From NCBI GenBank assembly GCA_002150815.3, contig NDFF03000006.1:1-64000 (forward strand): a stretch of 64,000 nt of DNA, in the 5' to 3' direction. A program made the position numbers and the translations under genes. Shown piece after piece: positions 11,173 through 64,000 of the stretch (positions are counted from its first letter, which is position 1; each line of letters opens with the position of its first letter). The notes under the pieces were generated by a model. The model saw nothing but the letters and a program-made list of their open reading frames with translations, did no database searches and was not told where the DNA came from. The DNA comes from Grammothele lineata. Taxonomy: Eukaryota; Basidiomycota; Agaricomycetes; Polyporales; Polyporaceae.

Positions 11173-11581
11173 GTTATAGGTGCCAGAAGCTTCTCGATGG
11201 ACTATCGTTCAATGTGGTCCCTTCCTGCAAGAATATGCGATGAGCAGATGCGTCAAAGACATTGATACCGCACGCCGTACGTACCAGTACTATCGTGCTG
11301 CGCCCAGGTTAGCTGGCCGGCATGAGCCTGCCAGAACAGCGTCCGCCGGCTCGCAGATCTCTGAATTTGTTTCGCAAAGAGAGTGACCAATGGGACTATG
11401 TACCTAGGTTGGGAGGGATGTGTGCATACCCGTCAAGTAGTAGGCGAAGGAACGTAGGCACACCGCCGCGCAAGTTGGTGCGGGCTGATCTGGACTCCGA
11501 TAACATTACATAAGCACTAGTTCTACAATTGAACAACTCAACAAAGAATGGAGCAACACGAACGAGACGAGAACGTAACTA
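11173..11581. other. Intergenic between two F-box genes
   Basis: About 400 bases with the promoter of the 9304-11172 gene and the 3' end of the next F-box gene. No repeat or RNA seen. Confidence 0.5.
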
Positions 11582-41980: not shown

Positions 41981-44581
41981 AACCCAGGCGATGCTGAGAT
42001 GGAAGAAGACGATTTCGAGGATGATTTCGAAGTGTTCTCGTCTGAATTGACAGCCTTTGATCATCTTCGAGAGGGGTTTGAACAGGAAGTTGCGGCGATT
42101 AGTGCGTTCTAACGTCCCATCGCTCCTCTGTCTTTTACTTATGCATTCACCTTGCAGAAGACAAACTTCGGGAGGAGGACAAGGTATTCCTCCGTGCATT
42201 TGCGTACAAACTGCGTAACAACCTCACGATCTCAGCATTCGAAGACATCCCCAACGGTTTTCCTATCAACAACTTCCCATCCCTTGCAGTCATCCGATCT
42301 CGCATTGCCTTTCTATCTGGGCTTAAAGCTGAGCGATACGACTGTTGTATCGAGTCATGCATGGCCTACACTGGCCCCTTCTCTGATTTACAGACTTGCC
42401 TGTATTGTGAGTCCTCACGATACGATGACTACGGAAAATCACGGCAACAATATTCCTACCTTCCTCTCGAACCACGCCTCCTTGCCCACCGTCAGCACAT
42501 TGAGACCGCTAAGAAGATGGCGTACCGGGGCAACTTCAAGCCTAGTGCAGATGGTAGCCGTCAGGATATATTTGACAGCAGCCATTACCAATCACTTCGC
42601 AAGCGTCGTGTCATCGTTGACGGCTACGACACAGGACATACCTTTTTTGACGACCACCGTGACATCGCATTAGGACTCTCGACAGACGGCTTCGCTCCGT
42701 GGCGCCGGCGCAAGCGTTCTGCATGGCCAATCATTGCCTACAACATGAATCTCCCTCCCGAAATCCGCTTCCATAAAGAATACATCATCCCACTGACTGT
42801 TATCCCTGGACCGAAAAAGCTGAAGGATTTCGACTCCTTTCTGTGGCCCGTGGCTCAGGCACTCCTCCGCCTTGCAATCGGAGTGGCAGCTTACGATCCT
42901 TTGGCAGCATCGATGTTCATTCAGCGCGCATATGCTATTCTGGTCTCTGGCGACATTCCAGCAATATCCATGGTGATACACATGAAGGGCCACAACAGTC
43001 TGTGCCCTTGTCGTATGTGTGAGATCCGTGGCCTTCGGATCCCAAGTAACACTCGAGCCACAACCCACTACGTGCCTCTCGAACGCTCTCGCCATCCAAC
43101 TGTACGTGCGGATGCTTCTGCAATCAAAGCCTACAACCCATCCGCACTTCCTTTGCGCACACATGACACCTTTCTAGCACAGGGTCGTGCTGTCATGGAC
43201 GCCCCGTCAGATGCAGAAGCAGAACGACGTTCGAAGTCACACGGTATCAAGGGTGTTCCGCTTCTCAGCCACTTACCCTCCCTATCTTTCCCTCACTCAT
43301 TTCCGTACGATTTCATGCATCTCATTTGGGAGAATCTCATACCCAATCTTGTTCGCCTCTGGACTGGAACCTTCAAGGGACTAGACGAAGGCCAACACTG
43401 CTACAAGCTGGACTCGACTGTGTGGGAAGCAGTTGGTGAAGCCACCGCTCGTGCAGGCAGTACTCTTCCTTCCATTTTTGGACCTCGACTTGGGAACATT
43501 GCGCAAGACAAAGGGAACGCCGGAACAGCTGATGCATGGTCTGTATGGACGCTGTACATCTCCCCTGTGCTTCTTCGACAGCGATTCCACCATCAGAGGT
43601 ACTATAAGCACTTTGTTGAACTTATCAAGCTTCTCCTTCTCTGTTTACAGTTTGAACAGACAAAGGACGAGATCGAGACAATCCGACACGGATTCATCAG
43701 CTGGGTGACAAAATACGAACAGTAAGCAGTCGATCTATATATTCTTTTAACTCTGGAATCTGGCTCACTATCTCTCATATAGATATTATTACCAGTTCAA
43801 TCCGGAACGTGTCAGCACCTGCCCTGTGACCGTTCATGCGCTCCTGCACATTGCGGATAGTATTGAGCAGACAGGGCCGGTTTGGACTAGCTGGGCCTTC
43901 CCCATGGAACGTTTCTGTGGATCCCTCCAGCCAGCCATCAAAAGTCGACGTCACCCATGGGCCTGCATCGATAAACGGCTACTCAAAGTCGCTCAGCTCA
44001 CACAGTGCCAACTTCTGTATGACCTGCCTGAGCTCTCGCTCCGATCACCTCGTGCTGAGAAGTACCGCAACTCAGACAACGGACCACGTTCCCAACGGGA
44101 GCATAGTGTTTCTGGATGTGAGTGTTGGAGTGCTGTCACGCTCTTCTGACAAGTTGAAAATAGACTTGGAATGTGCTGATTGAGAGGCATAGATACGTCA
44201 ACATGTGTTCTAATAGAACCACGTTGTACGCCGAAATTAGGTTCCGGGGTACTCAACCTAATCATCGGATGCCTGGTGACACGATACGAAGTCTCGTCAA
44301 GACGTGTACGGGATGTCTTGCCCCCTGCAATCGAGCAATGGGCTGCGGTACGCATGCTAAATGGGGGAGACACAGTGTGTGCAGCTTCCATCAGCAATAA
44401 ATTCACAGCCCTTATTTTCGCTTGTGATCACCTTGTAGGCTCTTGTTCGCCCTTGTCTACATGTATGAAGGTTCAATATATAGGGAGAATATCTGAATCA
44501 GACTTAAGCTGTCTGTACCGGCCTGTTTTAGGGTTGAATGCAGGATGCTCAGAGTTTTTCAAGGCGGTTACAAGACCTTAG

Positions 44582-45782
44582 CTGGGTTATCATAGCTCAT
44601 CATAAGTCTTACCCAGAGATTCAGCACAGTGATATGTTCCAGCTGGGGAGGCACATCAGACATTCCATAGTGTAGACAGGTCATTAAGGTGACAAAGGAA
44701 TAAGAAATAATGGGTTAAGATCCTCAAGATATCCAAACTATATTGCAGCATAGTGTGACTTAAGGTATACAGAATGGTAATGCACAATAAGGTGTATCAG
44801 TGTTCAGATAAATAAGCAGTTTAAGGCGTTCAAAGATTTTGTATAAGTTCACATACATTTCATAATCCAGACCTACCAGCTTGTTCGAAGGACGCCCAGC
44901 CTACATGGACGTGTCTGGAATTCAGACCACCAAGACAATCATTAGACTAATGTGACTATAAGAGGGCCTTGAATAGAAGACATACTAAGACAGCTTCGTC
45001 TTCAGGACCCATCAGACTGCCATAGACAGCTAGGTCACATAAGAGCCTGTACAGGTACATTCAGACCTCATAGTAGTCCAGCCACACAGGTTGTTCAGAT
45101 GCATCCAGGCCACAGAACCACCGGTTCACACAGGCCGTTCGTATGCGTTCAGGCCGTTCGTATGCGTTCAGGCCGTTCGTATGCGTTCAGGCGCGTTCAG
45201 GCGTTTCAGGCGCGTTCAGGCGTTTCAGGCGTGTTCAGGCGTTTCAGGCGCACCGAACGCTTGAACAGAATAAATGACGGATGGGATACAGAAGAGCAAT
45301 GCGTAACCCATACAAACCAGCAAGCTCACAGAGCAACAGAGGATTGTTCAACTAGGGGGAGGGGACGAAAACAGAGGCGCGGCCTATCACAAACGGTTGG
45401 GCGGATACAACAGGGAGCAATGATACGGGATTCAAACTGATCAAGACAAAGGTATGAAAATATTGGGGGCAGGGGGAAGGGGGGCGATACAATGGGCACG
45501 GGGCAATGGCAATGCAGCGAGGACAGGCGTTCGGTAGCAGTGAGGGTAGCAATATGAGGGACAACGGGACCGATGGGGTATTGGCTCCTTGCAACGACGA
45601 CGGGCAGCGTGGTTGGCCGAGGCCCATGACGGCGTGCAGCCTGCAGCCGTTGGACCTGTCGACGGCATAGGCCACCGATGCATAGGCCGGTCGACCGCTG
45701 CCACAAGCAGGGGCCCGCAAGCTGGAGGGGAGGAGCGTCAGCGCAGCTGGGTACCGATATCCGCTACACCTACCGGCTGCGA
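44582..45782. other. Non-coding; probable right end of the CACTA element
   Basis: About 1.2 kb. TTAAG motifs (44690-44830) and many CAGAC-type motifs (44865-45090) suggest subterminal transposase-binding repeats, followed by the tandem repeat at 45130-45250. No gene seen. Confidence 0.45.
45130..45250. repeat. Short tandem repeats
   Basis: Three copies of a 19-base unit GGCCGTTCGTATGCGTTCA, passing into about three copies of a related unit GCGTTCAGGCGTTTCAG. Confidence 0.85.
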
Positions 45783-48700
45783 CTAGTCGTCATCGTCGGC
45801 CAAGTCTTTGAAGGTGAAGCCGCTAGGGAGCCAGGGTACCGTTGAGGTCGACGCCCCGGGATCAGCAGCGCCCGGGTTTTGGGGCCCAGCCATGCGATCG
45901 CGAGCCGCCTGGTAGGCCGCCTCGATGACGGCCGTCTTGCGCGCCTGGATGGACCCGACAAGATCCAACGTCTGTCGTGAAATCTCCGACCCACCGAATA
46001 TAGGCTTGGCGCCGGTTACGGGATCCTCCTGGACGACCCATCGCTGGTTACGCTTGGATTTCTTCTCGTGCTCAGGCTTCTCAGGCTTATAGACGAGATT
46101 GGAGGCCCAGAGACCGCATCCACGATTGCCCTATGCAAAACTTGAGCGGTTGAGGATACGGGCGGCAGGCAGTACGTACCGACACACCGGCGATGGCCAA
46201 TGCACCGATGGGGGCCTTCACCTTTTCTTCATATCCTGGGACAGGGAGCGCGCCTTTCGTCGCCTCGAGGTGTGCCATCAACGGGCCTTGCACGAACGGG
46301 CTCTTCAACATACCCTATAGCGACGGTCAGCAAGACATGATGCCGCACAAACGGGCATGCGGGTCAACCTGCCTTCTTCTTAGTCGACCAAGGGTCTTCG
46401 TAGAGGACTTGGTGCGACGTGATGAGCTGTGAAAGGAACGCCCGAGACTTCTCAGTGTTACGGAGCTTCGCGCTGTTGTTCCGAATCCAGTTCCCCGTCG
46501 CCTCAATGCCAGCATAGCCGATCTGTGATCGCCACTCGTACACCCGCTGCATGATCTGTGTAGGGTTTGACACAATTGAGGGGCGATCACGAAACGGCAA
46601 CGGGGCACTTACATGCTTGAAAAAGACATCACCTTCGACGATGACGTGAGGGATGGCCGGGCCGTGTGGACTACCATTGCCATACACCACATCCCACGCA
46701 GCCTGAGCCATCGAGACTGGGACGGGCTCCCAAGGGTTGTCCACCGTGCCGTAGATGGATAGGATGGTGGGAAGGAGCATGCCCCTCCACCTATTCCCGG
46801 CCTTGACGTTCTCTGGCAATGCACCGGGGTCGGCACCGCCCCCTGCGATTATGATGGGCTGGGGAATGTAACCGTTAGAGGGTACATGCCGTGGAGCAGA
46901 GCCTTACCTCATCCTGAGTGCCGGCCGCCATGACCCCCTCCGCGTTGAACTCGATCTCCTCGCCCTCACCCTCATACTCACCCTCGCCCTCGCCCTCGTA
47001 CTCCTCCTCGCCCTCGCCCTCGCCCTCGTACTCCTCCTCCTCCTCCCCCTCCTCCTCCCCCTGGTCCCCGTCTTCTTCGTCCTCCGCCTCGCCGTCGCTC
47101 TGACCCTCGACGTATTCCCCATCATCACCACCGGGCTGCTCGTCGCTCGACTCGTTAGAGATATCAATGACCCCAAGACTCCGGGGCGGTGCGGGATGTG
47201 GCGGGTCGACGTCCATATCATCCGCCTCAGCTGCTGTCATCAACTGTCGAGAACGATTCAGCTCTGCAGCCTCCGCAGCGAGGGCGGCGAAGCCGTTGAT
47301 ATGCCGCTCTGACACAGGGGCTGCCCTGCGCTTGCGAACGGTGCCCGGCGTCCCGGTAGTGGAGCGGCCGCGCCCCTTGCCAGCCGATGCGCTGGACGTA
47401 ACGGATTGGGCCCTGGACGGGGCGGGGGCGGAGAACACGTCCCGTACCGTAGCCCGGGATGGGCCTCGGGTAGGGGCAGGGGCCGACAATGAGGCATGGG
47501 CCTTGGCCTTAGCGATCTGCTTAGGGGCTGCAGATGCGGCCGGCTTCGAAGGAATCTTCTTTGGAGGGAGGGCGGGCTCAACCTCCTCGACCTTGATGAG
47601 GCCCTAAAACGACGTTAGTGCAACGAGACGCACAACGCAAATATGAATAAATACATACCATGGTCGTCGACGTGCGGGTAGGGGCAGGGACTGTGCCCTT
47701 ACCGGTCGAGGACGAGGGGGCGGTCTTGCGGGTCGGGGCCGAGACGGTGCCCTTGCGGATCGGAGTTGGGCCCGGGAGCTCGATCAGTTGAAAGGAATCC
47801 ACCTCTTCATCATCCCCCTCGCCTTCGGACTGCACGTACCCGCCCTCCGCGATGTCGATGAGCTTTTGGGATGACGAATCGTCCTTGGCCTTGGCCTTAC
47901 CCTTTTTCGTGCTGCTGAAAATATACGGCGTGAAGAGAACGATGGGCGTGGAGGGGGCGCGTCGTAGAGTAATCATGTCGGGTGGTGCAGATGTGGAACG
48001 GGTTGGCGTATGGGTGCTGTCGTTGTTAGCAAGATCGTAGACCAGCAGGCGGAGGAACACATACGTGGCTGATATCACGTGCCCTCCGGAGATGTCGGTC
48101 GACAACTCCGCGCGCGCTTGAGCCACCATGGTACGGATGTTGGGCTGAAGAACGTCAGCGGAAGGTGCAGCGTTGGGCTTCTTCTGACCGGCAGCGTTTC
48201 CTGCCTTTGGCTTGGTCTTCGTCTTCTTGGGAGGCGGCTTCACAGGGGACGCATTGATCCCGCCAGGCGCAGACTCATTGGAGTCAGCGTCCGAGCCATT
48301 CTGCCCCGGGCCGGGGGTTGGTGCCTCCTCGGGGATGTCGTCCATGGCGGGCTCACCACGTTTGCGTTTTGAAATCTTGTCCTTGCTCATGGTCGGAGTT
48401 TCGTTGCCATTGCCTGTCCGGACGAGAACGTCCATCAGCATCGAAGGGGGTTGAACCCCTGTGCGCGCGGCCTCTCGTGCGGCCTGAGCCCGTTGAATGC
48501 TGTCCTCCACCTCCGCTATCGCCAGGGCCCCTTCGTTCCTCGGAGCAGCGACCGCCTTAGCCCCCCTGCCCCTGCCCCTGCCTCTTCCCCTGCCCCTGCC
48601 CCCGCCCCGGGCCTTACCCTTCCCCACATCCCTATCGCCACCCGATTCCACCTCCATCCCCACCTCCGTCTCCGTTGCCTTCGCTTTGGCCTTAGCTTTG

Positions 48701-48816
48701 CCCTTGCCTCCTCCTTTGCTATTGCCGGCGGCCGCACCAGAGGCGCGGGTCTTCTGAGGCAGGTCGATTTCGCCCGGATGGGCGAGGCGCGAGGAGGCCC
48801 GCAGCTGCATGTTCAT
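45783..48816 (-). CDS. Large unknown protein of the Plavaka-TET element
   Basis: Six exons, 48816-47659, 47603-46908, 46858-46613, 46555-46373, 46314-46180, 46130-45783, all joined in phase 0, give 921 aa. The first 600 residues are low-complexity: a GRGRGRGRGRG run near 80-95, Lys/Ala-rich basic patches (KKTKTKPK), Ser/Pro/Thr stretches and a long Glu/Gly acidic run near 575-610. The C-terminal 300 residues look folded: GNRWRGMLLPTILSIYG, PHVIVEGDVFFKHIMQRVYEWRS, LYEDPWSTKKKGMLKSPF, AHLEATKGALPVPGYEEK. I do not recognise the family with confidence. Intron 4 needs a GC donor (AAG then GCAGGT) to stay in frame. It is divergent from the dioxygenase and transposase and shares their high GC content. 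Confidence 0.65.
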
Positions 48817-48894
48817 TGGCTCTATATGGGCGTTGGCAGAAAATGGGCGGAAATAGGCGGCGAGAGGCGAGATGGAATGACGATGGGGGGCGAG

Positions 48895-49062
48895 GGAGGA
48901 GGTGAGGGAGGCGAGAGTCGAGAGGCGAGAGGCGAGGCGAGAGGCGAGAGACGAGAGACGAGAGAAGCGAGACGAGAGGCGAGGGCTAGGGGCGAGAGAC
49001 GAGGGGCGAGGGACGAGAGACGAGAGACGAAGGACGCGAGACGCGAGACGAGGGGCGAGGGG
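48895..49062. repeat. Purine-rich GAGRCGA tandem tract
   Basis: About 165 bases made of GAGAGGCGA, GAGACGA and similar 6-9-base units on the plus strand; almost pure purine apart from the C. Confidence 0.85.
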
Positions 49063-49489
49063 CTCAAGATGTGCGGTGGGGGGTAATAAGGCTCAGTGCA
49101 TGCTGGCAGGGCGAGGCAAGGCAGAGCGTGGAGCAGGGACGAGGTAAGACGTACTGAAGTCTGACGCCAGCTAAGGACGCGACTAGTGCCCGACCGACGT
49201 CCTCATCGGTTTCAGGGCCTGGAGCGTAAGGTAGGACTCCCGAGATGTAGCGGATGCCTTGAAGGGCGTGTAGGCTGACAGGACACGCGAGTCAGCTTCT
49301 CTTTCGTTGGTACTCAAGGACGGATGCAGGGCATCAGGAAATAACGCTACAAAGAGCGGGGTCACGTTACCGCGATCGCGGTCGCGGTCACGTGTCTATC
49401 AACAAGGAGCGGATATACCCCCGCCCTTCCCGGCATGGGTGCTACCCTTTGCGCCCCCACTACTCGGCGGCCCCAGCGCACAAATCCCT

Positions 49490-49720
49490 CCCTCCATCCT
49501 CCTCAGTCGCGAGCGGCCGCACGTCGAAACGCGCCCCTGCCATCCGGCGGCCCGCTCGCGCTACCGTCCATCCTCCCATCCTCCTCAGTCGCGAGCGGCC
49601 GCACGTCGAAACGCGCCCCTGCCATCCGGCGGCCTGCTCGCACTACCATCCATCTCTCCACCCCCAATTCCCCCAAAGCGCGGGCGGACCTGCGTCGCAA
49701 CGCGCCTCTGCCATCCCCCT
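49490..49720. repeat. 82-bp tandem repeat, about three units
   Basis: CTCAGTCGCGAGCGGCCGCA recurs with an 82-base period (49502 and 49584); a degenerate third unit ends near 49715 at CTCTGCCATCC. Confidence 0.85.
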
Positions 49721-50064
49721 TCGTATGGCGTGGTGGTAGGAAAAGGGGGTGCACGCACCATGGGTGGGGGCCGACATATTCTGAACGACCGGCCGTCTTG
49801 ATCGGAAATTCTTGAGGGGCGAGCATAGCAGGATGCTAGGCGATGGTTGATGTACACGCCGAGATAGATATCAGCTGAGGAGGAGGAGGCGGAGGAGGAG
49901 GCGGCGGCAGTGGCGGCTTCATAGAGACGGGTGGCTTAATGGGAATAGCAATGGTACAATCCGGATCATAACCGCGGCCACCGGTGCTGATGGCACTAGG
50001 CATGGATTAGTTGAGGCAGGATTGAGCCAGACTAGTAGCGAGACGGATAGGATAGGTAGACGGG

Positions 50065-50103
50065 GCAGCAACTGAGGCGGAGGCGGAGGCGGAGGCGGAC
50101 GCG
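50065..50103 (+). repeat. GGCGGA hexanucleotide repeat
   Basis: Five or so consecutive GAGGCG units; a related GGA/GGC-rich tract lies at 49877-49918. Confidence 0.8.
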
Positions 50104-50605
50104 CTGACGCCGAGCGCCGAGTAGCCAAACACGGTAGCGCCTTGAGTCTCGTCGCGCACGCTAAGTCCGAATCATCCTCCTCTACAGCCCCACCCCTCCG
50201 CCCCGTCCCATCGCGTGCAGTACGACGTCTCGAGCAGGAATACCCAAGCGAGCGCGTTCCTCGGCGTCGCCCTCCCGTCAGTAATCCTGTACGTTCGCGC
50301 GACTAAAAGGGCTCACCTTGAATGCTATACTAGCCCGGCGTGCACCCGTGCAGCCTTCAGCGCAGGCCCCGGTATGCAGCTGCACACCTTCATCGTGCAT
50401 TCAGTGACATATAGGCATTCTAGACACAGCGCGGGACTCGCTCTGGCAAGACCTACTCCCCCTATGCCGAGTCCCCGATCTTGGTGAGCGAAGGCTTCGA
50501 CATCGACCCTCTGCTGGAGGCCGCCGTGCAAAGGCATCTCTCCGCGGATATAGGGAATGGGCGAGATGTATTTCTGGGGCCTGCGGACATGGAGAATACG
50601 GGTGC

Positions 50606-52168
50606 GTGACATACCGATATAATCACAGATCCCCTCCTTATTCCTTTCCTCCCCTTGCGCCCCTCAACGTTCGACAACCGTGGACGTCGCCGCTTGGCTC
50701 TCCTCAAACCCATCCCCATGCCATCCCGTCACCCTCTGAAGCAGACCCCGCCTCAGTCGCATCCGCGACGTCGAGTGCACCTCTTCCTGAGCGATCCGTG
50801 GCGCCGCCCGTAGACTTCTTCGCCCCAGCGGGCGGCATAGAGGCTGCACGATCCAAGAGCCGTAGCAAGCGCTATTTTCAGCAGAAGCGCGATACCAAAC
50901 GAGGGGCCAACCCCTCCAAGCCGAAGTATGCAGCGCTGCGTCGGGCCTGCGCGGCAGAGCCAATCGCTACAAACGTCTCAATTGGATGCCCGGTCGAACA
51001 GGGGGGATCCACCACAGAACCGCAGGCCTCCGCCGTTAGTCTCGACCGCCCCCATTTCCCTATCGCGAAGTCGTACTGGCAGGGCGTAAACCAGCCGCGA
51101 GAGTCCGACGGCGGGACGCTTGATCGACTGAGGGCTGAGGGCTTTGGTTACGTGGAATGGAAGGGGCAGTAAGTTCCCGTATTACTCTCCCCCCGCTGGG
51201 CTAAGCACTCTTTTGCTAGGGACTCGCATCCCCTGGTAGAGCGGACGTATGGCAAGATCATAGGGTGTCTGGCGGGCTCCCCAACCGGGAGCAGTTGGAC
51301 AGAGGTGCATAAGGGGGCCTGTAGCGACTTCAAAAAGGCCCGTGCCAGCCTTGATGTTATGGGATACAAGTATGACCATCGCCGTGGTCCATTTTGGGCC
51401 ATTGACTCGGGCGAGTCGTACGGTGCTGGGCAATCGGTAGGCAAATGTATTGCATCCCACCGTCGCCGGCCAGCTGAATCTAGCCAGGCTCCCAGCAACG
51501 TTCTTCTGAAAAAACAGAACCGTCAAGTGATGGACGGCCTTCTCAACAGCAACAACATCAAGCGCATCGCAGGCTTCCAGGACAGTAAGTTTGACTGCGA
51601 ACGTCTTCATCGGGCATTCCTGACCTTCGCTGTTATGCAAGGCGCCTTCAAACTGTGGGCCCCAAGGCTTCATCAATACTACGGCGACACGCTCGAAGAG
51701 CTCAATTCGCATCATCCCCAGCTCCGTCGCAACTTCGATCATTCAGTGTTCGCCGCTGCGACTGCTAACCTAGGCCCGCAGACCGTCACCCGACCGCACA
51801 TCGACCATCTAAATCTGCCAAACGGTTGGTGCGCCATCACAGCCCTCGGGCGATACGATCCGACGCGTGGAGGTCACCTTGTCCTCTGGGACCTCAAGCT
51901 CATCATTGAGTTCCCTCCCGGTGCGACCATCCTCATTCTGTCCGCAATCTTCAAACATTCGAACCTCCCTATCGCCGACGACGAGATGCGCTATTCGTTC
52001 ACACAGTATACGGCCGGCAGCTTGTTTCGATGGGTTTCCAACGGGTTCCGGTTCCAGAAGCTTTTGGACGCCGAGGGCCAGAAGTCCGAGAGCGGTGAGG
52101 CACGGTGGATGAAGAGTATGGACCTGTTCAGCACCATGGAGGAGCTGGCGCGGATGGCAGAGTTGTAG
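50606..52168 (+). CDS. TET/JBP-like Fe(II)/2-oxoglutarate dioxygenase
   Basis: Two exons are clear, 50606-51168 and 51220-52168 (503 codons). The first has no ATG, so the true start lies in an upstream exon I could not fix. The Fe(II)-binding His-x-Asp is HIDHLNLP (H381, D383 counted from 50606), the distal ligand is in IFKHSNLP (H434), and the 2-oxoglutarate-binding Arg is probably R445 in EMRYSFTQY. The spacing of about 50 residues between Asp and His, and the GGHLVLWDLKLIIEFPPGATILI strand pair, match the basidiomycete TET/JBP family, whose members oxidise 5-methylcytosine or thymine in DNA. A basic, disordered N-terminus (SKSRSKRYFQQKRDTKRG) may bind nucleic acid. The ligands are intact, so activity is plausible. 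It lies 315 bases upstream of the Plavaka transposase on the same strand. Confidence 0.8.
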
Positions 52169-52483
52169 GGTTCCTTCTTTCCATATCTAGACGCCCTTAT
52201 TGCAATTCAATACAACCTCCTTTCTCTTCCTCCGCGCGCCAGAAGCGGCCGTTCAATTCCTTGCACCATGCGTCCATTATACCTGTCAATTATGCCCCCG
52301 CCCTTCGGCCAACAGACAGAGCCATCAAGCGCACCGTTGCGTGCATGTTCACATGGCGGGTGAGCCTCACTTCATACCAGACGCCCGACGCACTACTTAT
52401 ACCCCAAGCAAAGCTGAGCAGCCCCATACAGCTCAACCCCTCTAAGCACCGACACCTCTTCTGAAACCGACGCCTCCTTGACA
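52169..52483. promoter_or_regulatory. Spacer between dioxygenase and transposase genes
   Basis: 315 bases holding the 3' end of the dioxygenase and the promoter of the transposase; a pyrimidine-rich tract lies near 52210-52240. Confidence 0.4.
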
Positions 52484-55400
52484 ATGAACCGCGCGCCATC
52501 GAACCGACGGATTCCTTGCCCCGTTCCCGGCTGCCTTCGGGTTTGCCGTATGGACACCGAATACATGCAGCATCTGCATTGCATCCACCCCAACGTCGAG
52601 GCCCCCCAGCCTCCTCAACTTGAGCTCATCGTCAGCGACGATGAAAACGATCGCCTCGACGGGGATGAAGATGATCCGGTGATCCATACGAGCCCATTGG
52701 TGCGACAGCGAGCCCTCGGATACAGCGAGGGGAGGCAGCCGCTCCCGCGCCTGTAAGCCCCCACTCGATTCCACACCAGACTGCCCTAACCCCAATTCGT
52801 GACAGGGAGATACTAGCCCAGTTGTCCCATCAACTGGACGATTCGGACAACGATGACGATTACGACTCGGACGACGAGCCACCGCCCCTGATGCCTGTGT
52901 CGGACTCGGAAAGCGACTACGAGGGAGACAACGATGACAACGACGACAACGACGACAACGATGGCGGCGACGGCGGGGGCGAGGGCAACAGGCCGCGGCC
53001 CGATGATGACGACAGCGACGTCGACGACGGTCCCCTGCCAGGTCCTGGATGGGGCTGGCGTTTTGCGGCTAGGGGCGGCCCTGGTGGACGTCGTCCTGAA
53101 CCTGCTAGGGCAGACGGCGGCTTGGCTGCCGAGACTGTACGCGAAACTCACCCAAAATTCACCGGTACGTACCTTCCTTGACGCCCCGTCCCTTGGCCAT
53201 TATAACTGAGTTTTTTTAGGTCAACCTTGCGATGCTACGGGACGGCCGCTGCCTCCCGATGCGCGTCCACCACCGCCCGCTGCAGAGCGAAGCAGTGATG
53301 ACTGGACGCCTTTCCGCGACCGCGTTGGCTTCGAGGCTGCCCATCTCATCTACTCCGAGGCTCAAATGTCTGCCCCGAAGATAGATCGCCTGCTCAATCT
53401 CTGGGCGGCCTCCCTGCTCCCTCACGGGGACGCCCCTCCGTTCCGTAATCACGAGGAGCTTTATGAAACCATCGACAAAACGCCTCTTGGAGACGTCCCA
53501 TGGAGCCAGGTCACAGTCTCCTATGACGGCCCTCGTCCGGAGGACGAATCGCAGACCCCATCGTGGATGACTGAGCAGTACGCCGTGCACTTCCGTGACG
53601 CCCACGCCGTCGTCCTGGAGCTCTTGAAAAATCCCGCCTTCAAGGACGATATCGACTTCGGTCCATTCAAGGAATCCCAGAACGGCGATAGAATCCTCCG
53701 CGATCTAATGAGCGCCGAGTGGGCGTGGGAGAAGGCGGTTCGTCCTTTCGCGCAGCGTGTCAGCTCGGTATTGACTTAGAACCGTGCAGGATTTTCTCGC
53801 CAACAAAGTTGATCAGCCCGAAGGCCTCTCCTTCGTCCCCATCATTCTCGGTAGCGATAAGACGACGGTCTCTGTCGCCACCGGGCAAAACGAGTACTAC
53901 CCTCTGTATTTGTCCCTAGGAAACGTTAGCAACAACGTCCGCCGAGCACACAAAGGCGCGGTGTGTGTTCTTGCGTTCCTCGCAATCCCGAAAGGTAAGC
54001 TCCGCCCACACTGGCATGGAACGCTTTTAATCCCTCGCCATAACAGCCACTCGTAAACACGCTAACAGCGTAGAATTCCGCAAATTTCGCCGGCAACTTT
54101 TTCATGCGTCACTGGCGAGAATTCTGCAGTCGCTGGGCCCGGGAATGGAGAAGCCGGAAGTCGTCCGGTGCGGCGACGGCCATTTCCGCAGAGTGCTCTT
54201 TAGTTTAGGCCCGTATATCGCCGACTATCCCGAGCAGACGCTTCTTGCTTGCGTCGTTTATTCCTGGTGCCCCATGTGTGTAACACGACCGTTCCCCTCC
54301 CCACGCTCTGAGTCTGACATCGAGTGTACAGCTGCACAGCATCCCGGAGTAACTTGGACAACCCGCCGAACCCACCGATGGATCGGACGAAGAAGCTCAC
54401 TGCAACGATCGCAAAGAATTGTTCTGCCAAGAGTCAGTGGGAGGACTGGGGCGTTGTTCCGGATGCAGTGGTGGGGCTGTCTCATCTGCGCTTCTAAATA
54501 ACATGTATTCATTGTCGCTCTACAATTAGCCCTTCACGGACCATTTCCCCTATTCGGATTCTATTCACGAACTCATTGCGCCGGATATACTTCACCAGCT
54601 GATCAAGGGCTGCTTCAAAGATCACTTGGTAACTTGGGTTGAGCAGTTCGTCAAGACTCTCCCAGAGGGAACTAAGAAGCTTGCACAGATTGACCGCCGG
54701 TGGGTGGGCTTCTACGTACGCATTGCATTACTACACTCACTCCGTCCCAATACCATTGATTGCAGCCTCGCCGTCACCCCTCCCTTCTCCAAGCTACGTC
54801 ACTTTCACGAAGGCCGTTCGTTCAAGCAGTGGACCGGCGACGACAATAAAGGATTGATGAAGGTGAGCAATCGATTGTATATCTACCTTGCTGCGTATAC
54901 ACTAAGTATGAACTGAATCTCAGATTTATGTTGGCTCAATTGACGGCGTCGTCCCCCGATACATGGTCCGCACGGTCAGAGCCTTTATCGAATCTTGCTA
55001 TCTCGCACGTCGCAGCTCTCAAAAGAAGATCTCACTCAAACAACTCCACGAGTCTCTAGAACAGTACTACATATACAGAGAGATTTTTCGTGAGAAAGGC
55101 GTTCGTATAGATAGGAACGGTATCAACGCCTACTCGCTCCCTAGGGGGCATTCGCTGAAACATCTCATCGAACGGCTTTGGAAATTCGGCTCGGCCAACG
55201 GTCTCTGCTCCTCCATCACAGAGTCCAAGCACATCAAAGCGGTCAAGGAGCCGTGGCGTCGCTCAAATCGTTACGAAGCCCTCGGTCAGATGCTTCTGAC
55301 CAACCAGCGGCTTGACAAGCTTTCTGCCGCGCAAGTTGACTTCGAGGAGCGAGGCATGCTGGACGGGGACTATCTTGCGTCACTGAGAAGCGAGCTGGGT

Positions 55401-56388
55401 ATGTCCTTCGTCGTGTTCTTTCGTCTTCCTCCCCTTCTTACGAGAATCCTGCCTTTTCAGGGGTTCCTGAGCCAAAACGGCGCGGCAGAAAGCCCAAGTC
55501 TAAGGGAAAATCCTCGGCATCCAACGCACCCGCTTCTCAGCACCTACGAGAGGATGGCGATGGCGCTGTGGAAGGACCGAGGACCCGTGGGTATGTTGAA
55601 ATGGCGCGGACCAGACGTAAGGCCTCTCTTGATTCGTATTTCGAAGCATTACTAGGTTCTGACGGACCTTCGCTACAGAGCGTTATCTACCGACCTCTGC
55701 CCAGGACTTGGGGCCGCGTTTTGGCATCCCCAACCTGCACACGCTCATTCGCCGATATCTCTTCCGCGTCAGTAGTACGCCCGACATCGAACACTTTAGC
55801 GACGAAGCACTCTACCGGGATGTGGAACTCTGCCCCCAGTTCGACTCGCCCCTCTCGGTTTTCTTCTCCGCCTCCGCCACATTCTATGCGCCAAGTGATC
55901 CGTGCGGGGCTGGCGGTATGCGCAGGGAATACATACGCGCCACTCCTATGTGGCGGAACGGCGCCCCTCGCTGGGACTGCATCTTCGTTTACCGGGACCC
56001 ATCCGTCCACGGGCTTCTCGGGATGCACGTCGGACGTGTACGTCTGTTTTTTTCATTCAAGCAGGGAGGAAAGTTGCACGAATGTGCAGCCGTACACTGG
56101 TTCTGGAGGACCGCCGACACCCCCGACGAGGACACCGGTATGTGGGTTGTGTGTCCGGGACGTCTTCCGAACCCCGATGCCATTGGGGAGCACGCTCCGT
56201 TCATCACCGTCATTAATATCAGCGAGATCATTCGCGCTGCTCATCTCTCTGGGGTTAATACTAACCTAGAGGTTCCGGAGAAGATGCGCAGCTACGAGAG
56301 TCTTGATACGTACAGGATGTTTTTCGTCAATAAGTTCATAGATCATCACGCGTTCGAGCTACTCCATCCCCTCCCGTCTTCCTCTTAG
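52484..56388 (+). CDS. Plavaka-type transposase, apparently intact
   Basis: Eleven exons, 52484-52752, 52806-53164, 53220-53737, 53790-53994, 54047-54275, 54332-54470, 54530-54699, 54766-54862, 54924-55398, 55461-55616, 55679-56388, give 1108 aa. The protein starts with a C2H2-like finger (CPVPGC...HLHCIH, about residues 12-34), then a very acidic spacer (about 90-150). The catalytic core shows the family blocks FVPIILGSDKTTVSVATGQN, YPLYLSLGNVSNNVRRAH, AFLAIPK, FRKFRRQLFHASLARIL, LGPYIADYPEQ, IHELIAPDILHQLIKGCFKDH, FKQWTGDDNKGLMK and LCSSITESKHIKAVKEPWRR. The C-terminal region has SVFFSASATFYAPSD, GGMRREYIRATP and VNKFIDHHAFEL. Donors at 54276 (GTGTGT) and 54471 (GTGGGG) are weak but keep frame and homology. 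Plavaka belongs to the CACTA-like RNase-H-fold transposases. Confidence 0.88.
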
Positions 56389-59300
56389 GTTACTGAGTAG
56401 CACGCTGTAAAGTTAGCTTCTGTCTCATTTTCCTGTAATGTAACGTGAAGTCGCAACAATCCGAAGCAGCGCATTCCTTCACTTGGTCCTCTAAGTCGGA
56501 CTTGAATCGAAGTCTATGAGCGCGCAGTATGTTAGGCGCGCCACAGCCTACCGCCTTGGCGGCTAAAGTCTTCCCCCGCTACCACCGCCTCCCAGCGACG
56601 ATGCCTCCCATTCTTCCCCTCCCTGGAGCCGTCACGTTTGCTATGTGGGCACCGGTACACTATGTTGCACGCCAAAGCAACAGAATCCCCATGATTACAC
56701 CAGACTGTGAATATCGCGCCTTTGGGCTTCGGATTCAGCTTATCGGTGAGTGTTAGGTTCGATCGATTGAGGCGTGCTGCTGACGGGGTAGCATGGGCAC
56801 AACGGAGTGGCCAAGGCATTGGAATGCAATACTCGTGGTGCGATACACCCCCATGGATGTTTTTGGGTCGATACACGCCCAGTCTCCTTCCTTCAACCCG
56901 TTTTCTGCAGGGGTAGGGTACGGGGCCTCTACGGTACCTCCCAACCGTCCAACGTGTACCATTCCGTGGCTGGTTTTGGGTCTATGGCGGGTTTTGAAGC
57001 GAGCCGTTAAGAGATGGGATGGAATAATCCGGGGCACAGGTGCGTTATCATTGCAAGCGGGAATCCGCGATCTCATCTAGCCCATTGCAGGGGGGCCTCA
57101 ATTCACACTCGCTAGGGCCATGTACCCATTTCTGACGGCGCCCTTGGGAGCTTCTATCCCCCCCGTATTCTCTGGTAGAAATAGCCCCGACTAATCCTCT
57201 CCCAGCATCCCCTTTATCCTTGCCATCTGCGCACACAGCTAGGCGTCTTCTACCGACCATCTTCCCTCGATATGTAACCCTATGAGGGGCCGTGGCTGTA
57301 ACCTGATGGTATGTGATTCTCCCACTTTCCCCGGTCAACCGACGAGACACCAAGCTATCTAGCTGCATGGGCACGGATGCTTGACTGGGAACGAACGTCT
57401 CGTCCGCTGGAACATCATGTTGGCGGAGGCGGGTGGCATATACGCCGCAGGAGATCGTGGGCGCATCGCGTCGTGGACGAGTGTTTCTATTTATCACAAT
57501 TGCGTTGTTCTTGCGTAAGGTCCTCGGTTCAAAAAGCATTCCCCGCGCGTCCGGTCTTTTAGCCTGCGCAGCAGGTGCAGGATCATATCAGCTCAGTGAA
57601 CGCGAGGGGAAGATATTCGTAATATGGGTGCCTTTATATTGCATGGGACTCACGCGTTCCATGCACTCACTCCTATGGGGACGATCGTTTTATCTCTTGT
57701 TCCTTCAGTTATCTTCAATATATATCGACCAATATATACTGACCGTTGTTTGATCCAGCTATGTGATGTGCGCGTCTCGAAGACCGCAGTTCAACCGGCC
57801 CATATCTTCTTAAGCAGGCCCATCGCACCCGAACGTTGCACTTCACGCGGATGGCTGAGAGAAACGGATCCTCTCCGGGAGGAGGGTGAAGATGGCGACG
57901 CGGCGGTTTAGCTGCTCCCGCTCACTCTTCTTTTGGATCAATAACCATCCACATATACCCATCCCCCGGTTTACCCACCCAACACATGCCCTGCGTCCTC
58001 CGCGAAACCCCCGTTCAAATCCGCTCCTCCCGTCCGAGACTCACGTCCGGAGATGATATATTTTCGGGATCGGAAGGATCCATCGTTCGCGAGATTGCCT
58101 CGGCCTCGAGTGGATGGTAATCCCTTATGCCCCGGTGTTTGACGCGGGGAGGCTGCTGTCTCCGTCGCCGTTCGCGCGTGGTTTGAGTCCCCCCACCAAA
58201 CCCTCGGTTGCTTCTAGAGGTATTCAATCTTCAACGAGAATACGTCGCACGCCTTGCGTTCGGGGCCTCGACGCAATCCCGTTCGTCATCCAGCTTAGAG
58301 AGGCATTAACTACAGCATCCGTACTAATATCGTCCGCACGTTGCGCTACAGGCTGCGCTCCCTCACATGGACGTGGGTTTTGCGCCGAACGCCCCTACAA
58401 GCCCCCTCACGTCAACGCTACCACTGGCTACATTGGATCCACGCCTATCTCAGTCTTCTCCCCTGCATCGAGCCACGATACGTTCCTGGAGATCTCACAC
58501 CTCATTGCCATGCAAGAGTCGTCATTTCTCTCACCCTCCGCGCCCACTCAGCCCTGCACTCGAAGCAACGTCGATGAATCCGGTGTTGCACCATCAACGT
58601 ACCATGCATCCGCGTGTCGCTCCCCTCCATGTCGATGTCCGCGGCCCAGCGCTCACCCTCTACTTCATTGGAATTTAAGGAAGGGGATTCAGAAATGGTG
58701 AGTCGTCTACGTGCACGCGCGGAACTCACTCAATCATCCACTGCCGCCCGTAAGGGGCACGTGCACATAGGGATCTAAGATCGCCGATCGCGTGCCAACG
58801 TTATCTCACATGGCCCAAAGAAGCCCCTAATCGAGCAGGTACTCTACGGGACATAGGGCGTCCTTAGCCAAGCTCGAGGCGCCGTATATTGTCCGCCGAA
58901 GAATCACTCGCTACGTTGCGGTAGCCATTCAACAGGAATTACATGCGCTCCCTGCGTTCCTTCGTGCCGCTCGATCCCCCGTCGCCCGCACCGGGCCCTT
59001 TATTCGAGCCGCCAAAAGAGGCCTGCCAGCCAGCCAGACGTTCGTTTTCTCTCCTATCTGTACACTGGTTTGTACGCCACATGCGCAAGAGCTAACGAAA
59101 GCCTTACCTCCCTTGCTACACCTAGGATGTTCATACTCCCTATAAGGGGCTATCAGGCGATCAGCATGGCGTTCAGGCCGTCAAGCGGTATACATACTGG
59201 GGTCCTCGGGCCTCGGAATGAGGCGCAGCCTCGGCATGAGGCAACGGAGCACAAACCAGAAGTTCTCGTGGGTTGGATCGAGCGGTTCAGCGCCGCCGAG

Positions 59301-59400
59301 CTTGGTGATTCTCCCCGTGGCGTAAGTATTGATTCCCTTGAGGCCCTCTGTGTACGGATGGATACTCAGACTCCGCTAATGTAGAAGGATAGCACTCACG
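56389..59400. other. Gene-free stretch downstream of the Plavaka transposase
   Basis: About 3.0 kb. Many short frames on both strands (for example 57048-57539 minus and 58114-58701 plus), none recognisable. The right end of the Plavaka element should lie here, but I could not find inverted partners to the 44.6-45.8 kb region by eye. Confidence 0.5.
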
Positions 59401-61220
59401 CATGTTCGTTCTCAGGCGTTTGGTATCTAGCAATGCGCCGACGAACAGAGTTAGAGAAGGATGCAGCAGGCGCCCGTCTACTTGCTTTTCCAAAACGGTG
59501 ACGAATACAACCAACGCTACCACCGCCATACGAAGACCACCCGCTTCTCCGCCATCCGCATGCCCCGCCCGCCATCTCCCTCGCCTTCACCCGGCTTCAT
59601 CCACTCCTGAAAGGCTCTCTCCCCGGCCCTCATTCCTACCGGCCCAGGTGGCACATCGTTGGAACGGATGCCCACGGCCGCACCACCGCTCGATGCAGAG
59701 CCGCTACAGATGGGTACAGCATGCGCCCTCACGGAGCTCGACCTCGAAAGCAAGACGAAGGGCTCGCACGAGCCTTCCGGCTGCCCTCAAGGGTCTCGTG
59801 CGAGCGACGGCGAGTACCTCCCTTCCCCTTCTTCGTGCCTATACCCGCCATCCTTCGATGCCCAGCAATGAACAGCGCGGCGGGCCCCTTCGCCCTCCTC
59901 GACTCCGTCACCCCGCGCAACACGCACGTCCCCACCTAGCTCCGCGCCGCCGCCGCGATCTTCGGGAAAGTCGGCCTCCCCGAGTGGACGATCGTCTGCG
60001 GAAACGCCTCCTCCGGATTCTCCGAGCGCAGGGGCGAGAAGAGCAGCCCTTCGTGCAGCTCAAAGCCGGACAGCGGCGCCGAGAACGCGATCAGGCCCGT
60101 CGCGGCTGCACGGTGCTTGGAGATGGAGGCGATATCGCGTGCCCAAGCAGGTTCAACAACTCGACGGGATCCAAGCCGACGGCGAGGCTTACGCCCAGGG
60201 CAGGAGGTACGCCGGATCCCCCTCAACGCGCTGCCCAATGCTGATCGTCTGTGATCGGGCACGATGCTCGCAGTGATTTTGTTATCGGAGCTCCAGGACT
60301 CAGTAAGGCCTGCAAGTAGCGCGTCCTGTCACGGATGCCGAGCTAACCCTGAGCGTCATCGCCGGACATGACGGGCGTGACAACTTCACGCTCGTGTGGT
60401 CGTCCTGGGCTACACCAAGTTGCTGGAGGAGCACGGGGATGCCGCGCGCGTTCCTCGACGGGGCAGTCTCGGTTGCAGCCGCTGCATCCAACGCGTCGCT
60501 GGAGGTGATGCAAGGGCTCGGCATGACGGTCTTGGAACCGGTGGACTCCTTGAACGTTGGGAACGTGGTGGCGCTGCTAAATAACAAGACGGTCGTGTTA
60601 AATATGGACTTTCAGGTAGGTACCGCGCCATATGTGCCCACGCGTACGTATGGTCTGGAGCTGAACCACCGTGTCCGAGTCTACTCTCGTAGCCGTCATC
60701 AACCCCCTGCATTTCCTGAACGGCTTCAATTCATTCGCCCCTCAGCCCATCCTCCCCGGGTCCCAGCCGTGGGTTCACATGAAGGCGTATACCGGTTCGT
60801 GCGTCGCACTCCCTCGCTCGAACCGTCACTAACTAAATGTGGGATCGCGTCCGGGTCGAACAACGTTTCGACCCTAGTTGCTACTGCTACGATGAAGCGG
60901 GATGACGCTTCAAGCAACTCGTTAACGAAGGCATGGGTGGACGCGAACAACCTCAACGCCGTAGATGTTGCGAAGCTCTTTCATTGGACAGAACGTTGGC
61001 TCAGCCAGATGAACGAGACCCAGGGACGCGCGCGAGCTAGACGATATCCTGCAAGCATGTCTTACAGGCGACGAGATACCCGCCAACTGTCTGGATGGTA
61101 ACAGAGAGGCTGTAGCATGGACGTGGTGGCAGTTGGCTTGACAGCAAAGCGAGGTCACGACGTTGAGGTGCTGGAAACTGTTGGAGAGGGCGACGTTCTT
61201 TAGGGAGCTTTGGGGTAGAA
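59401..61220 (+). pseudogene. Decayed gene, family not recognised
   Basis: Coding-like pieces appear in different plus-strand frames: AGHDGRDNFTLVW then FLDGAVSVAAAASNASLEVM and GMTVLEPVDSLNVGNVVALL (60360-60615); WVDANNLNAVDVAKLF...QMNETQG (60935-61025); then, one frame over, ARELDDILQAC...NCLDGNREAVAWTWWQLA (61028-61140), followed by a stop and further frame change. At least two frameshifts and stops break it. The repeated Asn-x-Ser/Thr sites suggest an ancestral secreted protein. I cannot name the enzyme family. Confidence 0.5.
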
Positions 61221-61700
61221 TTTCGCAGGCCAGAACTTCCGATCCCGCTTCTACTAGATCTACTGTTACAACATTCCTGCCCGGTATTTTCTTTTTCCTT
61301 TCTTATTCCTCAATGAGCGCAACCTCTGTACCATTTGGTCCCGCGGCGATTCAACATCGCTATTGTACGTACGACTCATTGTGACTCACTTGGAGTCATC
61401 GTCTCGCGCCCTTGTCCCTATTGTCTCGAACTCTCTCGCGATCGTCCATAGTCATTGTCCTCATGTACCTATATAGTCTAGGTCTTTCTGAGGACGCTCC
61501 TCAGTTTGACCTCCTTTTCCAATCGAGGCCTCTCTCCCCACAGAACCCCCGTGTGTCACTCGCCCTCTACCACAGTGCTCGACTTCGCCTCTTCGGCGTA
61601 CGTCTACCCAGATCCCTCGACCCTCGACCGCGTGCGCTCGTTGTACGTCCCATAGGCGCCCGCGCTGGCCTCGGCGTAACATTAGGTCAAACTCATCTAC
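61221..61700. other. Probable LTR/leader of the retrotransposon
   Basis: The 5' long terminal repeat and primer-binding site of the gag-pol element should lie here, but the matching 3' LTR is outside the window, so neither boundary nor primer site can be defined. Confidence 0.35.
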
Positions 61701-63377
61701 TTGCCGACTTCTTTAAGTCCAGGCGAACACCGAACACACACAGTCACCCTGGAGTGCACCAGCGAAAGCAGACACGTCTACGACAAGGAAGACGTCGCTG
61801 ACCGACACCTTCAAGAAGAACCCCGCGAGTGGAAAATCTGCAGTGAACAACCCTGCCCACACAGACTTAACTACTACCCAGAAGACGCAAGCCGACACAA
61901 AGACTTCGAGAAACCCAACGAAACAAACCGACAGAAGATCCACAGGAAACGTGGGTACCCTGTAGCATCTGGAGCCAGCAACGAACCTCCACTAGCAGAC
62001 CAAAGCGCAGACAGACCTCCCTCAGCATCGGACCTTCGCGACGAACAATGTTTCATCGGACTACGGGTTATCACCTGGTCGGACTCCTTAGGCTGGGTCT
62101 ACACCACAGGCAAGGACGGAGTCGTACTAGATCGTGTCCAACGAGTACGAAGGAGCGCGTGGGACTCCGGAACACCTGAAAACCCCAGACGTGTACCAGA
62201 ACCCCCGATCCCCACCTCAGCACCTCGCACCAGACCCTCATCCCGTCTCCCTACCCCAGTACCACGGCAGCCCACGCCAGGGCCTTCAAACACTAAGCCC
62301 ACTCCACAACCATCGGCACCAGGATCCCCAATCCTCGCTCCCCAGCCCATACTTCCTGCAAGGACTCCGCCTCCTCCTCCCTCACCAAGTCCACCGCCTC
62401 CACCGACCCTCATCACCACCATGTCAAACACTCCCAAGGTCTCTGAACGGAAGATCCGCCCTCCGCCAGACTTCAATGGAAACCGCGAAGAGGCAGACAA
62501 CTTCCTCAACTCGTGCAGGGTGTACCTGCGCCTCAACGCGCAATCCTACTCGACGGACGAAGAAAAGATCATCTTCATCCTGTCGTACATGATAGGAGGA
62601 TCGGCTGGACCATGGAAGGATGCATTTACGACCAAGGCGTTCTCTATCAACCCGACGACATCCCAGGAGCACGGTTTTGGCACGTTTACCGACTTCATAA
62701 AGGAGTTTAACAAATCCTTTGAACCGTTGAACCCGGTCGACAACGCCATTGCTAAGATGAAAGCACTGAAGCAAACCGGCACAGCCGACGACTATGTCGC
62801 CGAATTCCTTCCGCTAGCGGTCAGGTCAGGCATCGGGTCCGTGGCAGTTCTCTCGGACTACTTCCTCACCGGACTCAAGAAGGGACTGGTCAACAACATT
62901 ATGACAGTCGAGAACCTCCCCACTACCATGGATGGCTACTACACCCTTGCCTCCCGTTTGGACCTCCAATGGCGCAAAGGACAGGAACTCACCAAAGGAT
63001 CGTCGGAGAAGAAGTCATCGGACTCAAAAGGGTCGACGACCTCCACCCAGGGCAAATCTTCCAACGCCATCAGGCTGAGGAAACTCACGGACGAAGAACG
63101 AACCCGGTACAAGAAGGAGGGACGATGCTTTAGGTGTCGCGAACTCGGACATGGACAGTGGGACTGCCCCCAGAGGAACTCCAACCCCGCAAACCCCAGT
63201 CAAGGGACGACGACCACCCCTGCCTACCGCAAGATCAGAATTGCGGCCTCAGAACCCAACAACCCCGCTCCAGCGGAACCAGAAGCCCCAGTCTCTCGCG
63301 TGCGAGCTCTATTCCACACGTTCACACCCGCGGAGAGAGAAGAAGTCGTAAACATCGCGGAGGCAGAGGGTTTTTGA
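61701..63377 (+). CDS. gag: Gag polyprotein of a Ty3/gypsy-type LTR retrotransposon
   Basis: The frame is open from 61701, but the first ATG is at 62421 (MSNTPKVSERKIRPPPDFNG), giving 318 aa. The upstream 240 open codons (basic, then Pro-rich) may be leader or may be translated from an unseen start. From 62421: a retrotransposon Gag domain with DFNGNREEADNFLNSCRVYL, FILSYMIGGSAGPWKDAF and FIKEFNKSFEPLNPVDNAI; then a Ser/Lys linker; then a CCHC zinc knuckle CFRCRELGHGQWDC (63126-63167) that packages RNA. The stop (TGA, 63375-63377) follows a slippery heptamer. The frame looks undamaged. Confidence 0.85.
   Translation: MPTSLSPGEHRTHTVTLECTSESRHVYDKEDVADRHLQEEPREWKICSEQPCPHRLNYYPEDASRHKDFEKPNETNRQKIHRKRGYPVASGASNEPPLADQSADRPPSASDLRDEQCFIGLRVITWSDSLGWVYTTGKDGVVLDRVQRVRRSAWDSGTPENPRRVPEPPIPTSAPRTRPSSRLPTPVPRQPTPGPSNTKPTPQPSAPGSPILAPQPILPARTPPPPPSPSPPPPPTLITTMSNTPKVSERKIRPPPDFNGNREEADNFLNSCRVYLRLNAQSYSTDEEKIIFILSYMIGGSAGPWKDAFTTKAFSINPTTSQEHGFGTFTDFIKEFNKSFEPLNPVDNAIAKMKALKQTGTADDYVAEFLPLAVRSGIGSVAVLSDYFLTGLKKGLVNNIMTVENLPTTMDGYYTLASRLDLQWRKGQELTKGSSEKKSSDSKGSTTSTQGKSSNAIRLRKLTDEERTRYKKEGRCFRCRELGHGQWDCPQRNSNPANPSQGTTTTPAYRKIRIAASEPNNPAPAEPEAPVSRVRALFHTFTPAEREEVVNIAEAEGF
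63368..63374 (+). promoter_or_regulatory. Predicted -1 ribosomal frameshift site between gag and pol
   Basis: GGGTTTT is read as G GGT TTT in the gag frame, the canonical X XXY YYZ slippery pattern, and is followed at once by the gag TGA. The pol frame is exactly -1 and open from here to the window end. No downstream pseudoknot was checked. Confidence 0.7.
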
Positions 63378-64000
63378 AGCGGCCATCTGAATCGACGTCA
63401 GCATGGCCCCGTATCACGGTCTCTCCTGTAATACTAGCAAACGTCAGCAATCGATCTATGCGTATTCCAGTCACGATTGACCGAACCGTCGAAACCCCTG
63501 CCCTCATCGACTCTGGAGCCGGAGGAATGTTCATCGATGAACAATTCGCTCGGGACAACAACATTGCCCTCACCCCGCTCATTAACCACATACCGGTATA
63601 CAACGTCGACGGCACCCAGAACAAGCAAGGAGTGATCACACACTACGCTTGGAGGGAACTATCCGTCGCAGGCATAACCCGACGAACAAGGCTACTCGCA
63701 ACCTCACTAGGAAAGGAGGCCATAATCTTAGGGCTTCCCTGGCTTCGGCGAACCAATGCGAAAATCGACTGGCAAACCGGGAAGGTAGAATTTGAAGGAT
63801 CCTCTGAAGCGGAGTCACCAAAACCGCGACCACGAGCGACGGTAGCAGATGAACCTGAACCTATCGACCAAATGATTTCTTATCTGGACCCTTCCCTTGA
63901 CCATTGCTTGGAAGAAGTCAACGCCTGCGCCGCACAGCTCGCCGAACCAGACACAAACGAGCATCACTGCCCTCCACCCTCTGAGGAACCGATCGACCTG
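63371..64000 (+). CDS. pol: Pol polyprotein, N-terminal part with retropepsin (cut by window end)
   Basis: Open in the -1 frame relative to gag for 209 codons after the heptamer, to the last base. The aspartic-protease active site is ALIDSGAGGMFID, with Asp-Ser-Gly at 63509-63517. GITRRTRLLATSLGKEAII and ILGLPWLRR follow, the usual flap and C-terminal helix (xxLGxPWL) of Ty3/gypsy proteases, then NAKIDWQTGKVEF. Reverse transcriptase, RNase H and integrase should lie beyond the window. No stop or frameshift is seen. Confidence 0.88.

Follow-up and report, generated by a model that had tools for sequence, protein, structure and literature searches.

The 64,000 nucleotides of Grammothele lineata DNA analysed here (contig NDFF03000006.1, positions 1 to 64,000; hereafter the window) contain a copy of a PlavakaB-type DNA transposon which, with near certainty, encodes a Plavaka transposase, a TET/JBP-fold dioxygenase and a divergently transcribed third protein, here called the partner, and inserts with 2-bp target duplications. 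A Plavaka element carrying such a dioxygenase and a 921-aa partner had been proposed in an earlier note, made from the letters of the window, and is now supported by the co-location of the three genes at all six partner loci found in the genome, by the termini of the element and by a tnp2 gene interrupted by one of its copies. The genome consists of 41.8 Mb in 252 contigs, indicated below by C and a number, and the window lies within C6. Profile and sequence searches of the genome score the best candidates only, and all locus counts are therefore lower bounds. The terminus and the genes of the window copy are:

44389..44404, + strand: left terminus of the Plavaka element, CATCAGCAATAAATTC; the same 16 bp are found at C125 12459 and C215 234781, and with one change at C20 5131
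45783..48816, - strand: partner gene, 921 aa, six exons (splice model), RG-rich and acidic N-terminal part, 6 loci
50606..52168, + strand: TET/JBP-fold dioxygenase gene; the catalytic exon starts at 51220, preceded by one intron at 51169-51219; 5' end provisional
52484..56388, + strand: Plavaka transposase gene (PF18759), 11 exons, 1108 aa, ATG at 52484, open throughout

The three genes lie together where the earlier note had placed them, and their arrangement recurs beyond chance, with the partner on the minus and the dioxygenase and transposase on the plus strand, in constant order, on six contigs (C6, C125, C215, C7, C20 and C219). By using the C-terminal exon of the partner as query, 5 loci (8 rows) were detected with the window version and 6 loci (18 rows, E up to 0.1) with the C20 version; dioxygenase and transposase were present at 6 out of 6, order and orientation unchanged, and a dispersal of the genes in other copies, which would have spoken against the proposal, was not observed. 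The distance from the end of the dioxygenase domain to the Plavaka domain is 1.3-1.7 kb in all six copies, while the partner exon is located 4.5-6.6 kb ahead of the dioxygenase in five of them and 25 kb ahead in the sixth (C219:716116-744864), where nested insertions are perhaps responsible. Between 44382 and 57051, the window copy runs colinear with that of C125, at 79-80%.

Searching the genome for the dioxygenase returned 26 rows, counted as 23 loci, six of which are the Plavaka loci just described (TET-plus). Among the other 17, eight have a match to a KDZ transposase within 4 kb and ten within 10 kb, and none has a Plavaka match within 20 kb. The corresponding search for Plavaka returned 69 rows, also counted as 23 loci, six with the dioxygenase.

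The ends of the element were defined by comparing the copies. The C215 copy extends to 250376, for a length of 15,596 bp, with terminal inverted repeats (CATCA..TGATG) identical in 48 out of 50 bp and TG duplicated at both sides. The C125 copy is 18,994 bp long, ends at 31452 (TGATG; one mismatch in 16) and is flanked at both sides by a duplicated AT; it splits a tnp2 gene, and when its flanks are joined with a single AT, a stop-free junction (...NDMCPNSC/MAYTGPYVHM...) is restored, in a frame resembling the first part of the tnp2 frame located at 42361 of the window. Both ends were also found for the C20 copy (15,162 bp), with no recognisable target duplication, while neither end could be found in C7 or C219. 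The element is thus a single mobile unit comprising partner, dioxygenase and transposase, because of the co-location at six out of six loci, of the termini with 2-bp duplications which enclose, rather than exclude, the three genes in C215 and C125, and of the tnp2 frame split in C125. The PF18759 domain, the CATCA..TGATG termini and a target-site duplication of 2 or 3 bp are features of the PlavakaB lineage.

In the window copy only the left end, at 44389, is preserved, and the right terminus is lost: similarity to C125 stops at 61259, and a Ty3-like long terminal repeat (LTR) starts at 61261. The limits of about 44.6 and 59.4 kb given in the earlier note are both to be corrected, the element starting at 44389 and being recognisable to about 61.26 kb. 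The inverted repeats and target duplication it had suggested looking for were both found in C215, and the duplication in C125. A right end at 57051-57055, where BLASTN similarity to C125 had ended, was rejected, since similarity restarts at 58261 and the TGATG end is found at C125 31452. Comparison of the last 0.5 kb of the C125 copy with the C6 sequence beyond the retroelement gave nothing above shuffled sequence. Left flanks of the window and C125 copies share no similarity outside the element, and no joined match was found in the genome by using as empty-site queries either the joined window flanks or the joined C125 flanks. A tnp2-family transposase (Transposase_21) is located at 42361-43725, just left of the element, and the C125 copy sits inside a related tnp2 gene.

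The sequence CATCAGNAATAAATTC occurs at 30 sites in the genome, against none for its reversed control, and many further element ends are therefore present. Most of these Plavaka-type ends are located away from the six TET-plus loci, some of them flanking Plavaka loci devoid of the dioxygenase (TET-less; C219 77255, C231 66231); the remaining ends may correspond to non-autonomous copies.

The transposase had been described as intact-looking, and the 11-exon model does give an uninterrupted protein of 1108 aa, matching PF18759 over its full length (profile positions 1-325 of 325; 410.9 bits, cut-off 26.3). A C2H2-finger-like motif, not called by Pfam, was noted by eye near the N-terminus. Since 52168 is the last position of the dioxygenase frame and the transposase begins with an ATG at 52484, the spacing of 315 bp on the same strand, also reported earlier, is correct. 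The ratio of nonsynonymous to synonymous substitution rates (dN/dS) relative to C125 is 0.05-0.16 for three exons. An exon-wise tree was built from 20 Plavaka loci out of 23, leaving out the partial C65, C24 and C3. Five TET-less loci are far apart in it and six form one group, while the six TET-plus loci stand alongside three TET-less ones (C29, C132, C230); a single TET-plus clade is not resolved, being present in 4% and 48% of bootstrap trees in two trees.

For the dioxygenase, the presence of all Fe(II) and 2-oxoglutarate ligands, claimed from the sequence, was confirmed (H165, D167, H218, R229, S231). The AlphaFold model (predicted local distance difference test, pLDDT, 84.7) has a double-stranded beta-helix fold which, in a structure search of the PDB, is nearest to TET/JBP enzymes, with CcTet, NgTet and TET2 as best matches, ahead of all other folds. 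Residue conservation was counted in the 120 listed out of 759 relatives: H165 and D167 are each found in 119, H218 in 120 and R229, the Arg which binds 2-oxoglutarate, in 118, while Asn170, five residues past the first ligand (H+5), and a Cys at H+11 are shared by all 120. By position, Asn170 corresponds to the Asn of TET2 which contacts 5-methylcytosine (5mC), a role described in PMC11040006. An HxD rather than HxE motif is found in the window enzyme and in 119 of the 120 relatives listed, and D in 22 out of 22 loci of the same genome covering the position. Assignment to the published AG type was rejected because Asn and Cys are found at H+5 and H+11, and not Gly/Ser and Asp (Gly331 and Asp337 in CcTet); nor does the enzyme belong to the PE type, having HxD in place of HxE. 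The same genome also has another TET family, which is CcTet-like and separate from that of the window enzyme, with 17 loci matching PF12851 (e.g. C239:21927 and C164:99810), several of which share contigs with KDZ matches.

In the dioxygenase tree, built without three short loci (C56, C233 and C152), the six Plavaka-borne enzymes and two metagenome proteins form one group (support 92/96). dN/dS, estimated by simple codon counts, is 0.20 between window and C125 (287 codons), 0.12 with C215 and 0.09 with part of C7, dS being near saturation (1.5) for the latter two; by these ratios, the dioxygenase is under purifying selection.

As anticipated in the earlier note, the divergent six-exon model of the partner gives exactly 921 aa, both the RG-rich and the acidic stretch being present; one of its five introns uses a non-canonical GC-AG donor. 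The conserved appearance of the C-terminal domain holds among the six copies in the genome, but no named species in the protein databases was found to have it. Residues 640-921 found no relative at E up to 0.001 among 1748 candidates, and a five-copy profile matched, in the protein database, only three metagenome fragments, although length limits may hide full-length relatives. One fragment is 100% identical to a C125 piece, and the others resemble, by eye, C20 and C7. Because these searches yielded just the three fragments, the partner appears to be known solely from Grammothele lineata or close kin. Its dN/dS relative to C125 is 0.05 and 0.28 for two exons; taken together, substitution ratios indicate constraint on all three genes. 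The predicted structure is poor (pLDDT 43.1), too low for a fold search.

The tandem repeats, right arm and adjoining retroelement complete the element and its border:

45131..45249: 19-bp subterminal tandem repeats detected by TRF; a 19-bp array is also found at C125 13182-13251
48908..49659: tandem arrays in the interval separating the divergent genes of partner and dioxygenase, a 7-bp array at 48908-49052 and an 82-bp duplicate at 49494-49659
56389..61260: right arm of the element; blocks similar to C125 at 56373-57051, 58261-59706, 59913-60391 and 61116-61259
61261..64000, onward to C6 68499: Ty3-like LTR retroelement, LTRs at 61261-61681 and 68080-68499, 90% identical, with a gag match

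Related 7-bp and 81-bp arrays (4.8 copies) are located at the corresponding place of C125, while no tandem arrays were found in the left stretch of C215; such arrays may be regarded as candidate binding sites only. The left subterminal stretch at 44251-45000 is AT-rich and CpG-poor (observed/expected, o/e, 0.33-0.51 in 500-bp windows), unlike the remaining element. No clear intact gene was found in the right arm by frame inspection and Pfam, and for a putative fourth gene, whose frame (58857-59381) is the best of those shared, Pfam gave no match over cut-off. At C125 30605-30860, also in the right arm, a fragment similar to 26S regulatory subunit 7, the ATPase RPT1 of the proteasome (E 1e-13), is probably a captured piece of a host gene. 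The retroelement is placed exactly where the Plavaka right end is lost, and no matching target duplication was seen around it.

We slightly favour, over all others taken together, the reading in which this PlavakaB-type element uses its dioxygenase to oxidise 5mC and relieve its own silencing, with the third protein binding element DNA. The enzyme would act through a TET2-like base pocket, including the Asn five residues past the first Fe ligand; promoters and ends of the element would be freed from silencing in a repeat-methylating host; and the partner, once bound, might either aid transposition or aim the dioxygenase. An anti-silencing role of the element, suggested by way of inference in the earlier note and also proposed for such elements in PMC12730594, would follow from these steps. 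In favour are the six co-locations, the ends and duplications of C215 and C125, the split tnp2 frame, the TET fold, the conservation of ligands and Asn170, the purifying selection on the dioxygenase, the grouping of the six Plavaka-borne enzymes with two metagenome proteins and the C5-methyltransferase matches of the host. Several observations weigh against this interpretation. Pfam Tet_JBP (PF12851) does not match the window protein, and among 32 relatives it detects only seven at E up to 0.1, the best value being 9.5e-7; a sequence search of the PDB with the dioxygenase or its profile matched no solved TET; and the equivalence with the TET2 residue was obtained by counting from HxD, not from a printed structural alignment. 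The partner has neither a Pfam match nor a recognised domain. Seventeen of the 23 Plavaka loci lack the dioxygenase, three of them in the nearest transposase group, and CpG o/e fails to separate TET-plus from most TET-less Plavaka loci.

Concerning the last point, the window element has a CpG o/e of 1.00, and ten stretches taken from the other five copies have values of 1.01-1.10, compared with 1.05-1.23 in 13 of 14 TET-less Plavaka loci; C29 alone is depleted (0.37). CpG depletion was hence rejected as an indicator of escape from methylation, since it did not distinguish the TET-plus loci from most of the TET-less ones. Judging from base composition, CpG decay is present in the genome but does not track the enzyme, because TET-plus copies are no higher than most TET-less ones and the only depleted locus, C29, is TET-less. 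Matches to C5-methyltransferases are found in the genome as 6 rows on three contigs. One such locus, C101:180060-180422, contains in-frame stops and has, with its flanks, a CpG o/e of 0.22, which may indicate that some loci undergo CpG decay; at another methyltransferase locus, C248, the value is 1.11.

The strongest competing explanation, possible though clearly less likely than 5mC oxidation, accepts the same element and assigns to the dioxygenase a different substrate: another DNA base, as for JBP on thymine or the glyceryl transfer of CMD1, RNA, or a protein, for instance a chromatin factor. The structure search, in which CcTet, NgTet and TET2 outscore every other fold, and the occurrence of Asn170 in all 120 relatives listed argue against it.

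A more specific version of the 5mC reading, to be considered as a rather unlikely one, is that of a self-directed epigenome editor, whose partner would bind the 19-bp, 7-bp and 81/82-bp arrays of the element itself and recruit the TET2-like dioxygenase, freeing only copies of its own family. Such an editor would be an enzymatic counterpart of VANC, based on a TET lineage distinct from the AG and PE types described so far. VANC, according to PMC5735166, is a sequence-specific anti-silencing protein of VANDAL transposons, whose targets often form tandem repeats; in both systems, a protein encoded by the transposon is proposed to remove methylation from members of its family, but VANC is a sequence-specific protein, whereas the candidate here is a 2-oxoglutarate dioxygenase with a putative role.

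We give still less credence to an unaimed activity, in which the dioxygenase acts on 5mC genome-wide, the element gains from a general rise of oxidised cytosines, and the partner is a transposition accessory unrelated to the enzyme, like TnpA of plant En/Spm. Plant CACTA (En/Spm) elements combine a transposase with a second protein, the TnpD/TnpA pair, and have subterminal repeats; the present element is alike in these respects, and unlike them in that its partner has no recognised DNA-binding domain. Oxidised cytosines are also found on retrotransposons in C. cinerea and L. bicolor, according to PMC12730594 and PMC8889193, and partner and dioxygenase are co-inherited without a known interaction, both of which would fit an unaimed enzyme. 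On the other side, KDZ-linked loci of this enzyme family have no partner match, and partner and Plavaka may therefore belong together, a point which does not separate aimed from unaimed action. That the dioxygenase is a passenger, kept by chance or because it benefits the host, and plays no role in the life cycle of the element, is very improbable, given its presence at six out of six loci of this element type and its dN/dS of 0.09-0.20, even if many Plavaka loci lack it and the C125 right arm shows that the element picks up gene fragments.

Both the class of element and the idea of anti-silencing are known, being already in PMC12730594 (Kojima 2025, published December 2025), while the type of enzyme carried by Plavaka and the presence of a third gene are new as far as the text of that paper goes. 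In its available part, TET-plus PlavakaB transposons are described in two Agaricales, Agaricus bisporus and Gymnopus confluens; Plavaka is listed under the PE (HxE) type, the AG type being given only for Kyakuja and Zisupton; TET-plus Kyakuja is the only such element reported from Polyporales; Iyer et al. are credited with having previously reported that TET/JBP genes lie close to transposases of KDZ and Plavaka; and anti-silencing by transposon-borne TET is a proposal described as experimentally unvalidated. Within the literature available, searches for Plavaka with a dioxygenase, and for Plavaka and TET in Polyporales, found nothing beyond this paper. Compared by description and not by sequence, Kojima's elements share with the present one the Plavaka transposase, the CATCA..TGATG termini, target duplications of 2-3 bp and a TET/JBP-fold dioxygenase; they differ in having a PE-type HxE enzyme, in place of HxD, and, in the text available, no third Plavaka protein is mentioned, whereas it is found here at six out of six loci. 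With the AG-type TETs of Kyakuja and Zisupton (KDZ), as described in PMC12730594 and PMC11040006, the window enzyme shares the TET/JBP fold, the HxD..H ligands and a transposon-borne location in Agaricomycetes, and KDZ elements of this genome carry its relatives; yet CcTet, the solved AG relative, has Gly and Asp at H+5 and H+11, where the window family has Asn and Cys. Identity to human TET2 and NgTet is 13-16%; the window enzyme differs from them in being transposon-borne and in its C-terminal and insert regions.

Transposon-borne TET genes may represent selfish DNA equipped with a methylation eraser. The same species offers an enzyme with the TET2-like Asn, a CcTet-like family, Plavaka loci with and without the enzyme, which can serve as natural controls, and a third gene exclusive to the trio; with these features in one genome, the escape of transposons from silencing by means of TET is directly testable in a single species.

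Elsewhere in the window, four F-box-like genes of 564-622 aa, a possible local family, are located at 9304-15734 (- strand) and 25375-27153 (+ strand), and a histidine-specific methyltransferase domain (Methyltransf_33) is found at 20919-21686.

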